Below, piece by piece: positions 1 to 41,647 of a stretch of 41,767 bases of DNA. Position numbers and translations under genes: made by a program. Position 1 is the stretch's first letter; each line of letters begins with the position of its first letter. Source of the DNA: an uncultured Bacteroidota bacterium (GTDB lineage Bacteria; Bacteroidota; Bacteroidia; AKYH767-A; JABDAW01). The notes beneath the pieces were generated by a model. It was given only the letters and a program-made list of their open reading frames with translations, was not told the DNA's origin and made no database searches. The DNA lies in the NCBI GenBank assembly GCA_903911135.1, contig CAIWCG010000211.1:1-41767 (forward strand), given 5' to 3'.

Positions 1-120
1 ATGCATTTCTCTTCCGACTTGATGCATTTCTCTTCCGACTTGATGCATTTCTCTCTCGACTTGATGCATTTCTCTCTCGACTTGATGCATTTCTTCTCCT
101 ACTTGATGCATTTCTCTTAC
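1..120. repeat. Tandem array, 21-bp unit, about 5.7 copies
   Basis: Five full units start at 1, 22, 43, 64 and 85, each beginning ATGCATTTCT, followed by a partial unit from 106. Copies differ by a few substitutions near the 3' end (TTCCGACTTG, CTCGACTTG, TCCTACTTG). The array is cut by the window edge, so its true length is unknown. The reading frame through it is open only because 21 is a multiple of three; the heptad-like peptide it would give has no start signal or homology I recognise. It lies upstream of element A at 241. Confidence 0.95.
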
Positions 121-187
121 GAAACAACTCGTTGTAGCTTTAAAACTACTCTTTGTTGCAAATATGGTATGCTTAGGCTTGGGAAAA

Positions 188-3181: not shown

Positions 3182-3260
3182 ATGTTTACATAAACTTTTC
3201 AAATGTTTACATAAACTTTTTGGATATTTACATAAACTTTTCAAATGTTTATGCATTCTT
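3182..3260. repeat. Tandem array, 21-bp unit, 3 copies plus partial
   Basis: Units start at 3182, 3203 and 3224, each close to ATGTTTACATAAACTTTTC, with a broken fourth from 3245 and a decayed copy before 3182. The array sits between the convergent DUF3089 and lpxB genes and precedes element B at 3327. The spacer 2982-3529 holds nothing else I can support. Confidence 0.9.
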
Positions 3261-3326
3261 AGTTGGTTGATGGTGGTAAGGGGGTGGTGAATGGTGGGTT
3301 TTGCCTACCACACCTATGACTGTTGA

Positions 3327-3464
3327 TTCGAAGTATGTGCCATGGAGCATAGCCCTGACATGCCCAAGATTATCCTCTTGTGCGTTGGCATTTTTGGGGG
3401 GTATGGAAGAGATAACTGGTGGCTGGCAGGACAGGTTATGATACGAGAACCGGGCGTAGGCTCC
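3327..3464 (+). repeat. Dispersed intergenic element, subfamily B, copy 1 (candidate structured RNA)
   Basis: The element shares CATAGCCCTGACATGCCCA and GATAACTG...GGCTGGCAGGAC with the copy at 25819, and both with the minus-strand copy at 41205. Its ends (TTCGAAG..., and ATACGAGAA...TAGGCTCC) match subfamily A. A helix TTAT-C-CTCTT (3370-3379) pairs with AAGAG-ATAA (3407-3415). TGCCA (3339-3343) can pair with TGGCA (3424-3428). It carries no conserved open frame. Confidence 0.75.
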
Positions 3465-3529
3465 TGATTGGAATTATTATTGATGAACAGGTAACGATAA
3501 CTGCTGATGATGGTGAGGAGGATGGTTGA

Positions 3530-6852: not shown

Positions 6853-7131
6853 AAACTGTAAATGTCATCCCGCAGCCTTGCGGGTGCCATCGTTAAAAAT
6901 AATTATGCCATGGCGGACACCCGCGAAGACATCCTCAAAAATAATTATGGCATGGCGGACATCCGCGATTCCATCGTTAAAAATAATTATGACGTGGCGG
7001 ACACCCGCGATGACATCCTCAAAAATAATTATGGCATGGCGGACTCCCGCGATGACATCGTTAAAAATAATTATGGCGTGGCGGACACCCGCGATGGCAT
7101 CCTTAAAAACAATTATGGCGTGGCGGAACCA
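6853..7131. repeat. Tandem array, 42-bp unit, about 6 copies
   Basis: The landmark AAAAATAATTATG (AAAAACAATTATG in the last copy) recurs at 6895, 6937, 6979, 7021, 7063 and 7105, exactly 42 bases apart. Each unit also holds GGCGGACACCCGCGA or a close variant, a small hairpin (GCGG/CCGC). A half-unit with its own hairpin (CCCGCA/TGCGGG) precedes the first copy. The array lies in the 584-base spacer between the desaturase start and the terminator of the cargo operon. No A or B element is present here, and nothing recognisable lies at 7132-7281. Confidence 0.95.
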
Positions 7132-13240: not shown

Positions 13241-13482
13241 AGAGGCAAAAACTTGTACGGACGCAAGTTCTGCTCGGCATAAGCATCCATATACATGTAT
13301 GGACACTATTTTTCCTCGGCGATAGCATCCATACACCTGTATGGTCACCATATCCGCACGGAACTTGCGTCCATACACCTGTACGGACACCATATCCGCA
13401 CGGAACATTCATCCATACATGTGTACGGACACTATTTCTGCACGGAACATGCGTCCATACACGTGTATGGACGCATGTTCCG
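13241..13482. repeat. Tandem array, 42-bp unit, five copies, ending in a perfect 40-base palindrome
   Basis: The landmark G(C/T)(A/G)TCCATA recurs at 13283, 13325, 13367, 13409 and 13451, always 42 bases apart, with a half-unit before the first. Each unit contains a palindromic centre such as ATACATGTAT or ACACGTGT. In the last unit the symmetry extends to 40 bases: 13443-13462 is the exact reverse complement of 13463-13482. The array occupies most of the 515-base spacer between two plus-strand cargo genes. There is no A or B element. Confidence 0.95.
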
Positions 13483-13564
13483 ACAAGGAATGCCATCAAT
13501 ACATGATTTTTTCTTCCAAACCCGAAAAGCACTCCTTATATATATAGTATCATTTTTGCTTGAG

Positions 13565-19862: not shown

Positions 19863-20071
19863 ATGTATCAGGCTGACTTTCATTCAGTCTGATACTGTTT
19901 ACACCCACTCAATTTTTTATAAAGTCGATTAGTTTTGGCTTGGCTGTTGACTAAGACCTCTGTTTATGGCTTTAGAACTTCTATGTTTTTTTTCAAATCT
20001 TTTCTCTTTTTAAAGAATCTCAAGCTAAAAATGGCTCGTTGCTGCAATAAATATATACTTTTAGGGCGCAA

Positions 20072-20281
20072 GGCACCTTGCAGACCAATCGGAATATAGT
20101 TATCGGTCTGCCAGGCACCTTGCTGACCAATGGGAATATAGTTATTGCTCTGCCGAGCACCTTGCAGACCAATCGGAATATAGTTATTGGTCTGCCAAGC
20201 ACCTTGCAGACCAATCGGAATATAGTTATTGGTCTGCCAGGCACCTCGCAGACCAATCGGAATATATATATTGCTCTGCCG
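20072..20281. repeat. Tandem array, 42-bp unit, 5 copies
   Basis: Units start at 20072, 20114, 20156, 20198 and 20240 and are each close to GGCACCTTGCAGACCAATCG followed by GAATATAGTTAT and a GTCTGCC block. Differences are single bases. A decayed flank (GGACATATTTGG) follows. It lies in the spacer 19863-20659 after nuoL, 72 bases before element A copy 2. The first 200 bases of the spacer (19863-20071) are AT-rich with no gene. Confidence 0.97.
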
Positions 20282-20353: not shown

Positions 20354-20482
20354 TTCGAGTTACCTGCCGTCAAATCTAGCCCCGATAGTAGCGGCAGCCC
20401 GCTGCCTTGTGTCGGTAATGGGGATGCAGCGGCTACAGCGGATAGCGGGACGTAGATGATACGAGAAGATGCCATAGGCTTC
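20354..20482 (+). repeat. Dispersed intergenic element, subfamily A, copy 2
   Basis: The core CTAGCCCCGATAGTAGCGG through GCGGATAGCGGGACGTAG matches copies 1 and 3 almost base for base; changes are confined to the predicted loop (CTTGTGTCGGTAATGGGGAT) and the flanks. The 5' end carries TACCTGCC and the 3' end ATACGAGAAG...TAGGCTTC, the ends shared by A and B. It lies 3' of the 42-bp array in the same orientation as the other plus-strand copies. Confidence 0.8.
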
Positions 20483-25483: not shown

Positions 25484-25714
25484 GGTCATCGCTAAGGTCA
25501 TTATCGTGACGATAATAACCTTTATTGCGACGATTATAACCTTTATCGTGACGATTATAACCTTTATCGTGACGATTATAACCTTTATCGTGACGGCTAA
25601 GGGCAATATGGTGAACGCTAAGGGTATTATCACGGCGACATTGACCAATATCATGACAGCATTGACCTTTATTGTGGCATCTATAACCTTTATCATGGCT
25701 GCAAAGGGCTTTAT
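25484..25714. repeat. Tandem array, 21-bp unit, 11 copies in two sequence variants
   Basis: Units start at 25484 and then every 21 bases up to 25694. Four central copies resemble CGTGACGATTATAACCTTTA. Others are of a second type (such as CGTGACGGCTAAGGGCAATA), mixed at both ends. All keep the ending (T/A)TAT and the 21-base register without a single slip. The array lies between the convergent giant cargo gene and dnaK and precedes element B copy 2. Confidence 0.95.
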
Positions 25715-25818
25715 TTTGGAAGGTTTTGATTTTCAATTCCGTAATTTGGGTTTCAAGGTTATCCGTGTTTTCAATTTTAATGCGGATCATCTTTTATACA
25801 TTTTCTGATGAAAGCCAT

Positions 25819-25957
25819 TTCGAAGTAGCTGCCATCAATCATAGCCCTGACATGCCCAAGGTTATCCTCTTGTGCGGAGGCATTCTTGGGGGGTATGGAA
25901 GAGATAACTGATGGCTGGCAGGACGTGCATGGAACGAGAAGAAAACATAGGCTCCAA
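25819..25957 (+). repeat. Dispersed intergenic element, subfamily B, copy 2
   Basis: It is nearly the same as copy 1 across CATAGCCCTGACATGCCCAA and GGGGGGTATGGAAGAGATAA. TTAT-C-CTCTT (25862-25871) pairs with AAGAG-ATAA (25899-25907); CTGCCA (25829-25834) can pair with TGGCAG (25917-25922). It ends ACGAGAAGAAAACATAGGCTCC in two conserved blocks (ACGAGAAG and TAGGCTCC), just before the dnaK terminator. Confidence 0.78.
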
Positions 25958-25969
25958 AAAAAGAAATGC

Positions 25970-29258: not shown

Positions 29259-29420
29259 GGGGGCGCCCCCTTTCAGCAGCCAAGGGAGAAAAGGCTGCTG
29301 AAAGGGGTCGGGGTGTTGCGTGGGTTCGCTACGCTCCGTTTTTGCCGCCACCAACAAACGCAAGATAAAGGCGGCAAAGAACCGCCTATCGGCGCCACTA
29401 CACTCCCTCGCCCGAGGCTA
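29259..29420. other. GC-rich segment with several stable hairpins, unexplained
   Basis: The segment contains the palindrome GGGGGCGCCCCC (29259-29270). Overlapping it, CCCCTTTCAGCAGCC (29267-29281) is the perfect complement of 29293-29307, so the two structures compete for the same bases. A third pair is TTTGCCGCC (29341-29349) with GGCGGCAAA (29370-29378). Base composition is clearly richer in G+C than the surroundings. No open frame with recognisable coding content runs through it. It fills the spacer between the lipoprotein gene and the array at 29545; 29421-29544 shows nothing. Confidence 0.7.
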
Positions 29421-29544
29421 CGAATAAACTTTACAGCAAACTTTTCAGATGCGACTCGCTAAAATGGTCAAAATCTATCTCCGAAATTTAACTTCAGCAG
29501 ATGAAAACAGGCTAATTGATTGTTTATCAATGTTTTCATATAAT

Positions 29545-29770
29545 TATTGGAACGATTCTACCTATCGGTAGCAAGCCGCTACCGATAGGTAGCAGGTCGC
29601 TACCGATAGGTAGCAGGTCGCTGCCGATAGGTAGCAAGTCGCTACCGATAGGTAGCAAGTCGCTACCGGTAGGTAGCAAGTCGCTACCGATAGGTAGCAG
29701 GTCGCTACCGATAGGTAGCAAGTCGCTGCCGATAGGTAGAATTGAAGTTTTGATGGGAATTGTTCCAATA
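29545..29770. repeat. Tandem array of 21-bp hairpin units, 8 copies plus partial, inside an inverted repeat
   Basis: Units start at 29559 and then every 21 bases to 29706, with a partial at 29727. Nearly every unit is itself a hairpin, GCTACC-GATA-GGTAGC, separated by AAGTC or AGGTC. The whole array is bracketed by TATTGGAAC (29545-29553) and its reverse complement GTTCCAATA (29762-29770), and by ATTCTACC (29555-29562) with GGTAGAAT (29735-29742). On the right the two inverted blocks are separated by about 19 extra bases flanked by GAATT. Element A copy 3 starts 8 bases further on. Confidence 0.95.
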
Positions 29771-29777
29771 AAAAGAT

Positions 29778-29912
29778 GTTTCGAAGCTACCTGCCGTCGA
29801 AGCATAGCCCCGATAGTAGCGGCAGCCCGCTGCTTTGTTTCGGTAATGATGATGCAGCGGCTACAGCGGATAGCGGGACGCAGATGGGACGAGAAGAGGA
29901 CGTAGGCTCCAA
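29778..29912 (+). repeat. Dispersed intergenic element, subfamily A, copy 3
   Basis: TTTCGAAGCTACCTGCC at the 5' end, the invariant core ATAGCCCCGATAGTAGCGG to GCGGATAGCGGGACGCAG, and the 3' end ACGAGAAG...TAGGCTCC are all present. The predicted loop reads TTTGTTTCGGTAATGATGAT, differing from copy 1 at four bases while both stems stay intact. AT-rich direct repeats (AATTATAAATTATAAAT) follow at 29932-29948. The spacer to the mutY stop at 29987 shows nothing else. Confidence 0.82.
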
Positions 29913-36032: not shown

Positions 36033-36116
36033 TTGAGTCTGATTTATTCTTGGATGATCATTAAAGAATAAAACGGTTTTGAACGGGTAAGATTATTCCT
36101 TACTTATTATTCATGA

Positions 36117-36242
36117 AATAGTACATGGATAAGGCAAAATAGTACATGGATAAGGCAAAATAGTACACGGAAAAAGCCAAATAGTACACGGAAAAGCCGA
36201 AATGTTACACGGAAAAGGCAAAATGTTACACGGATTTTTGCA
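36117..36242. repeat. Tandem array, 21-bp unit, 6 copies
   Basis: Units start at 36117, 36138, 36159, 36180, 36201 and 36222, each resembling AATAGTACATGGATAAGGC. Change is progressive: the first two copies read GTACATGGAT, the next two GTACACGGAA, the last two GTTACACGGA. This fits stepwise duplication with divergence. The array lies between the convergent GH3 gene and the unknown gene at 36318. No A or B element follows. Confidence 0.96.
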
Positions 36243-41142: not shown

Positions 41143-41204
41143 AACCACCTTCCTTTTTTTGCTATCAAGCAAACAATTCAAACTAAAATACATCTTTTTT
41201 TTAA

Positions 41205-41345
41205 GGAGCCTATGTTCACTTCTCGTATCACGGTGCTACCTGCCAGCTATCGATTATCTGCCGCCAAAGGCAAGGGCCTTCGTAATGGCAGGATAAGCTG
41301 GGCATGTCAGGGCTATGACCGATGGCAGCTTCTTCGAAACAGCTT
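41205..41345 (-). repeat. Dispersed intergenic element, subfamily B, copy 3 (inverted)
   Basis: Read on the minus strand it shows TTTCGAAGAAGCTGCCATC, CATAGCCCTGACATGCCCA, then GCTGGCAGG, ATACGAGAAG and TAGGCTCC. Its internal helix TTAT-C-CTGCC / GGCAG-ATAA (plus strand 41287-41296 and 41254-41262) replaces CTCTT/AAGAG of the other two copies by paired changes. The apical part is different and contains its own small inverted repeat (AAGGC/GCCTT). The tandem array lies on its minus-strand 5' side. Confidence 0.78.
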
Positions 41346-41363
41346 TTGGCAGGTAGCTAAACA

Positions 41364-41499: not shown

Positions 41500-41647
41500 C
41501 GTGTACAGGTTCATGATGGTCGTGTACACGGCCATACAAACCTGAATACACGACCATACTATCCGTGTACAGGTTGATGCTGGTCGTGTACAAGTTGATA
41601 TTGGCCGTGTACAAGTTCATAATGGTGGTGTACATGTCCATACAAAA
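41500..41647. repeat. Tandem array, 21-bp unit, about 7 copies with an internal inversion
   Basis: Direct units start at 41500, 41564, 41585, 41606 and 41627, each beginning CGTGTACA or GGTGTACA. The stretch 41521-41563 (43 bases) departs from this. It opens with the palindrome CGTGTACACG and holds GAATACACGACCATA, which matches the units on the opposite strand, so about two units are inverted. The array lies on the minus-strand 5' side of element B copy 3. The remaining 120 bases show nothing except the first 14 bases of a hairpin arm like that at 188. Confidence 0.9.

Follow-up and report, generated by a model that had tools for sequence, protein, structure and literature searches.

Nine tandem arrays lie within a 41,767-nucleotide stretch of DNA from an uncultured Bacteroidota bacterium (the window), and they raise the question of why they should all repeat at 21 bp or a multiple of it. 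A sequence-only reading had proposed selection for helical phasing or a replication or recombination mechanism with a fixed step. We studied the periods, the unit variation and the surroundings of such arrays in this genome and in its relatives. Mostly intergenic arrays, nearly all with a 21-base step, are a trait common to this bacterium and two sister species. The step is found across unrelated sequences, so what is kept seems to be the spacing rather than the sequence.

Genomes and detection of arrays

The window corresponds to contig C211 in a genome of 3.80 Mb (G000; 296 contigs, 98% complete). Two congeneric genomes (G001 and G002) and one of the same family (G003) were used for comparison, the placement in the Chitinophagales being based on protein relatives. 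We sampled 801 kb (21%) of the source genome and, for comparison, 768 kb from G001, 120 kb from G002 and 41 kb from G003, together with parts of 20 additional genomes from the order and 78 loci from GTDB species. Arrays were called with TRF, using a score of at least 80 for the period statistics; the TRF counts rest on 140 kb in G001, on 330 kb in the order genomes and on 851 kb in the other loci, which are mostly from Chitinophagales. As a TRF-independent measure of period we used exact 9-mer recurrence by lag, per Mb. For the location tests genes were called with a simple codon-usage caller, and dispersed intergenic repeats from the same genomes served as the baseline for indels.

Arrays of the window

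TRF recovered all nine arrays that had been read from the letters, with periods of 21, 42 or 84 bp (Table 1), and the other repeats in the window were weak with scores of 60 or less. Given the background elsewhere in the order, where 3 of 24 arrays have a period that is a multiple of 21, the chance of nine out of nine is ∼1e-8. In all arrays a unit within the range of 10-100 bp is repeated head to tail (TRF), which makes them minisatellites; the whole period is repeated and there are no unique spacers as in a CRISPR.

Table 1. Tandem arrays of the window, with positions counted from its first nucleotide
Position	Extent	Description	Basis
1-122		21-bp array, unit ATGCATTTCTCTTCCGACTTG, truncated by contig start	TRF and sequence
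3182-3251		21-bp array, unit ATGTTTACATAAACTTTTCAA, partly palindromic	TRF and sequence
6853-7131	TRF 6885-7127	42/84-bp array 5' of a sphingolipid-desaturase-like gene	TRF
13241-13490	TRF 13328-13472; degenerate from ~13241	42-bp array, palindromic class, 28/42 self-complementary	TRF
20071-20280		42-bp array of a 21-mer and its inverted copy, 30/42 self-complementary	TRF
25484-25720	Core 25501-25595; degenerate to ~25720	21-bp array, related to two other arrays found in this genome	TRF
29558-29739		21-bp array, unit CTACCGATAGGTAGCAAGTCG, then Flavo-1	TRF
36116-36234		21-bp array, unit AAATAGTACACGGAAAAGGCA	TRF
41500-41642	TRF 41564-41642; degenerate from 41500	21-bp array with one inverted unit, then a 1-bp shift	TRF

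Period distribution across genomes

In the sampled 801 kb of the source genome 136 of 151 arrays have a period that is a multiple of 21 (TRF), with 52 arrays at 21, 49 at 42, 23 at 63 and 8 at 84 bp. The extrapolated total is ∼650 arrays, and their number in this genome is probably in the hundreds. The same multiples account for 39 of 42 arrays in G001 and 11 of 19 in G002, for 0 of 2 in the 41 kb of G003, for 2 of 13 in the 20 order genomes (330 kb) and for 1 of 11 in the further loci, mostly Chitinophagales (851 kb). The trait is shared by the two congeners and is not seen in the G003 sample or in the wider Chitinophagales (3 of 24).

At a lag of 21 the 9-mer recurrence per Mb was 6097 in the source genome, 11404 in G001 and 5213 in G002; the respective values were 26, 295 and 0 at lag 20 and 40, 39 and 17 at lag 22. 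The source genome reached 8482 per Mb at lag 42 (median 14), and peaks occur at 21, 42, 63 and onwards to 126. In all three genomes recurrence at lags 10-12, 31-33 and 52-53 stays at the background level or close to it, so the quantum is 21 and not 10.5. This genome-wide distribution had been set beforehand as the test of the hypothesis, which survives it with a sharp peak at 21 and its multiples.

By lag identity the arrays fall into two base classes: base-21 with 114 arrays in the source genome and 167 in G001, and base-42 with 35 and 25; a base-63 class is almost absent from both. The base-42 units are on average strongly self-complementary (z 13 in the source genome, 11.6 in G001), a unit tending to be a 21-mer plus its diverged inverted copy, and thus the modules hold the 21-bp step in either orientation.

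Unit sequences and flanks

The units had been described as mostly unrelated between arrays, and we found the same, with some small families. Among 21-class arrays 8 pairs of the source genome show a cyclic identity of at least 16/21, compared to 2 after shuffling; in G001 there are 38 pairs compared to 1, some perhaps being a single array split across two contigs. One such family comprises the window array at 25484 and arrays on L155 and L031. The GC content of arrays is 0.43, compared to 0.35 for other intergenic and 0.42 for coding sequence.

We considered several origins of the units. A search for a common motif by EM gave no convincing hidden motif in either genome: the score of 0.351 in the source genome is no better than the 0.29-0.40 of intergenic samples, and 0.434 in G001 is slightly above their 0.27-0.33. 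The flanks are mostly locus-specific with no common leader or universal flanking element among the arrays, which rules out a shared flanking element as their origin. Source copies of the units elsewhere in the genome were rejected, the excess over shuffled units being slight, as was an origin from 7-bp repeats, since similarity at a shift of 7 was not found. The relatives do contain 7-bp tandem arrays with up to 53 copies (L189:2134-2186 CAATTAA, L190:8393-8448 CTAACCA, L179:3578-3951 GAATAGT), a different repeat regime.

Neighbouring dispersed elements

Three window arrays adjoin copies of the Rfam element Flavo-1 (266-348, 20374-20456, 29802-29884), and there is no match to the Flavo-1 RNA (RF01705) above the gathering score within the arrays. 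The source genome has at least 64 scored Flavo-1 matches, and the element family, second type included, has ∼100 copies in the sampled 801 kb. Arrays lie on the 5' side of Flavo-1 in 67 of 69 cases (67:2); on the 3' side the next gene usually follows at a median of about 80 bp, so that an array would hardly fit there. We found 0 copies in G001, G002 and G003. As congeners have arrays without it, Flavo-1 is ruled out as the driver and is a neighbour rather than a cause; its abundance here, compared to zero in the three nearest genomes, suggests a recent burst.

A second dispersed element (window 3310-3475, 25815-25960 and 41195-41360) has ends like those of the Flavo-1 element, CTACCTGCC ... 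ACGAGAA ... TAGGCTCC, around a different middle and is possibly a related mobile element. A further dispersed repeat (window 29260-29440) starts with GGGGGCGCCCCC and contains, in reverse complement, an end resembling GGCGAGGGAGTG; it also occurs beside arrays on other contigs.

Substitutions and indels

Adjacent units differ at 14.6% of sites in the source genome and at 13.6% in G001. The share of transitions in arrays and dispersed repeats is 0.458 and 0.457 in the source genome and 0.478 and 0.497 in G001; the spectra match and thus the unit variants look like ordinary mutations. In the source genome we observed 0.017 gap events per substitution in arrays compared to 0.096 in dispersed intergenic repeats, so that indels are rarer about five-fold (5-6 times), and arrays with a divergence of at least 20% still have a ratio of 0.021. 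The depletion is weaker in G001 (0.042 compared to 0.110), which is partly accounted for by two outlier arrays that contain 73 of the 136 gaps. When arrays were simulated at a true ratio of 0.1, the measured ratio was 0.092 and 27% of the arrays were gapless; the detection bias is therefore small. The real arrays are gapless in 82% of cases in the source genome (96/117) and in 85% in G001. A register without slippage, as originally described, thus applies to most arrays but is not strict: beyond the inverted patch at 41521, for example, the register is displaced by 1 bp. With indels depleted amid ordinary substitutions, the register is apparently conserved. Selection against indels is the simplest reading that we infer from this depletion, the alternative being substitution-only copying.

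Coding potential

Seven codons make up 21 bp and the period could reflect coding heptad repeats. Open frames are common in the arrays, a few arrays outside the window are part of genuine genes, and two long arrays of G001 may be coding. Three related arrays (window 25484-25720, L155:16855-17100, L031:4602-4901) can all be read on one strand as a hydrophobic heptad-like peptide (3/3) and are, from their sequence, a possible coding exception. However, the differences between units are not biased towards any codon position (p 0.37 in the source genome, p 0.72 in G001), open frames over arrays equal those over GC-matched intergenic 21-mers with no excess, ORFs across six of the nine window arrays have no family match above cut-off, and the gaps in arrays of the source genome are mostly 1 bp. 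We regard heptad coding as a very improbable general explanation. The earlier statement that no array carries a credible gene stands within the window, to the extent of these tests, and fails elsewhere in these genomes, where some arrays are within real genes.

Genomic location

Arrays make up 14% of the intergenic bases in the source genome and 17% in G001. They occur in 52% (G001: 66%) of convergent intergenes, compared to 27% (34%) of tandem and 27% (51%) of divergent ones; for both genomes pooled the odds ratio of convergent intergenes versus the rest is 2.7 (p 5e-5). Gene order is broken at 28 of 28 testable gene sides with an array in the source genome, compared to 57 of 81 sides without (p 4e-4; non-array intergene of at least 100 bp). 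Where a gene side has an array in G000, G001 has one there in 17 of 20 cases, compared to 24 of 84 otherwise (p 5e-6; non-array intergene of at least 60 bp in both genomes), with unrelated units. Both results may partly be due to permissive block boundaries, and some arrays entered the location counts from both gene sides. The G001 orthologue of the sphingolipid-desaturase-like gene, for example, has an unrelated array on the same side as the window array. For the orthologous gene pair L144/L177 the intergene of the source genome has 110 bp and no array, and that of G001 has 374 bp with a 211-bp array between apparent divergent promoters (read by eye).

Predicted curvature

For an arbitrary repeat 21 and 42 are the best two integer periods for a coherent bend (10.5 bp/turn, 210 bp). 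A wedge model predicted a curvature of 0.66-0.72 degrees/bp for arrays compared to 0.40-0.42 for intergenic sequence (p 1e-12 and 2e-21), and re-spacing of the arrays to 20 or 22 reduced it. Column-shuffled arrays retained a predicted 0.61-0.64 and the real arrays are hardly above them (p 0.03 and 0.005, Bolshoy model). In the model the curvature arises mainly through the period, which alone would curve any sequence. Periods of 31 and 32 bend nearly as well in the model, yet such arrays are absent; as these three-turn arrays would be expected too, helical phasing alone is insufficient.

Discussion

Substitutions of the ordinary kind combined with 5-6 times fewer indels, and no detection artefact, support selection on spacing. 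Since 21 and 42 are the most coherent periods and the arrays are predicted to be more curved, we favour a selected two-turn spacing. Tentatively, the arrays would be genus-wide minisatellites whose conserved property is a two-turn 21-bp module and which act as architectural elements at gene boundaries. The module, whose copies all face the same way or alternate in orientation, would be free in sequence and held in its spacing by selection against indels. As repetition at 21 bp adds small bends in the same direction, an array would form a coherently curved, one-faced segment. Such segments may have an architectural or topological role at the borders of transcription units, most of all where genes converge, through curvature, phasing of nucleoid proteins or supercoil pinning. 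Ordinary tandem duplication would create new arrays, of which any with a step other than 21 bp would fail to persist. We infer a binding partner and a benefit as further parts of this model. It leaves the lack of 31/32-bp arrays unaccounted for, the same-side recurrence could reflect permissive, unconstrained intergenes and the indel depletion is weaker in G001. Of the two proposals made at the outset, helical phasing gains from this depletion and from the presence of 21 and 42 with 20 and 22 absent, but it does not suffice by itself.

The other proposal, a fixed step in replication or recombination, is a serious rival, although we consider it rather unlikely: a genus-specific enzyme or replication/repair process would copy exactly 21 bp (or 42 with inversion) as a mutational ruler, and the arrays would be neutral. 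The quantum of 21 rather than 10.5 fits this, about half of the 42-bp units in the source genome have unrelated direct halves and still obey 21, the inverted copies suggest fold-back copying, an orthologous site lacks an array where a congener has one, and unit variants in common show block duplication. The depletion of indels relative to an ordinary build-up of substitutions, however, is not explained by the step itself, and the reverse transcriptase and Y1 transposase families give no genus-specific candidate. SbcD (TIGR00619) was above cut-off in 0 of the 21 order genomes searched; missing across the order, it is not the genus difference, though its absence might help palindromic arrays survive. 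The distributions of all three thus fit no genus-specific factor. Ordinary slippage of free length in long unconstrained intergenes would agree with the long, non-syntenic intergenes in which arrays occur, and minisatellites are common in bacteria, but it predicts a broad period distribution where only multiples of 21 are seen; it is nearly refuted. It is improbable that a DNA-binding protein or family with a two-turn pitch recognises the units of each locus: plasmid iterons typically have a pitch of about two turns and dyad symmetry is enriched in the arrays, but by EM score they share no convincing motif and hundreds of unrelated sequences would require many specificities. Several contigs end in arrays, as an assembly artefact might produce, yet three genomes that were assembled separately all contain arrays, whose units are diverged and whose flanks are mostly unique. 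This makes an artefact the least credible explanation.

Among known systems, plasmid iterons share the pitch of about two turns with all units on one face, but each replicon has a single iteron sequence and a Rep protein that is cognate to it. BIME/REP elements are likewise intergenic and palindromic, often at gene 3' ends with a proposed topological role, but they form a conserved sequence family, which these arrays lack. The tandem repeats of Borgs are also pervasive, locus-specific, unrelated arrays in and between genes with rapid turnover, and they are nearly absent from the host genomes (PMC9879509). They have near-perfect, A-rich units of many lengths, and in intergenic arrays only 14-38% of these lengths are multiples of 3 (PMC9879509), whereas the units here are diverged by ∼14% between neighbours and fixed to multiples of 21. 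The BrickBuilt MITE of Porphyromonas gingivalis is another intergenic element of tandem units (23 bp) in Bacteroidetes, but with one sequence, a conserved leader and tail and 19 copies (PMC4596501), whereas units and flanks here are unrelated. The TAACTGA heptamers of Beggiatoaceae form well over a hundred intergenic direct-repeat sets in a single genome, but with one fixed 7-bp sequence (PMC4679880). We found no account of the present pattern in the open-access PMC literature, though such absence is no proof of novelty.

Still more tentatively, the arrays may represent a class of chromosomal elements that carry their information in the period: at hundreds of loci the sequence would drift freely and a two-turn step be selected, which would provide curved or one-faced DNA, independent of sequence, at transcription-unit boundaries. 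If the spacing is selected and the sequence free, such elements would be invisible to homology searches and visible only in period statistics. Should the step be set by a copying enzyme, on the other hand, this would represent a new fixed-length tandem-duplication activity. The arrays offer a natural setting in which to examine whether helical phasing and DNA curvature matter in vivo at the boundaries of genes.
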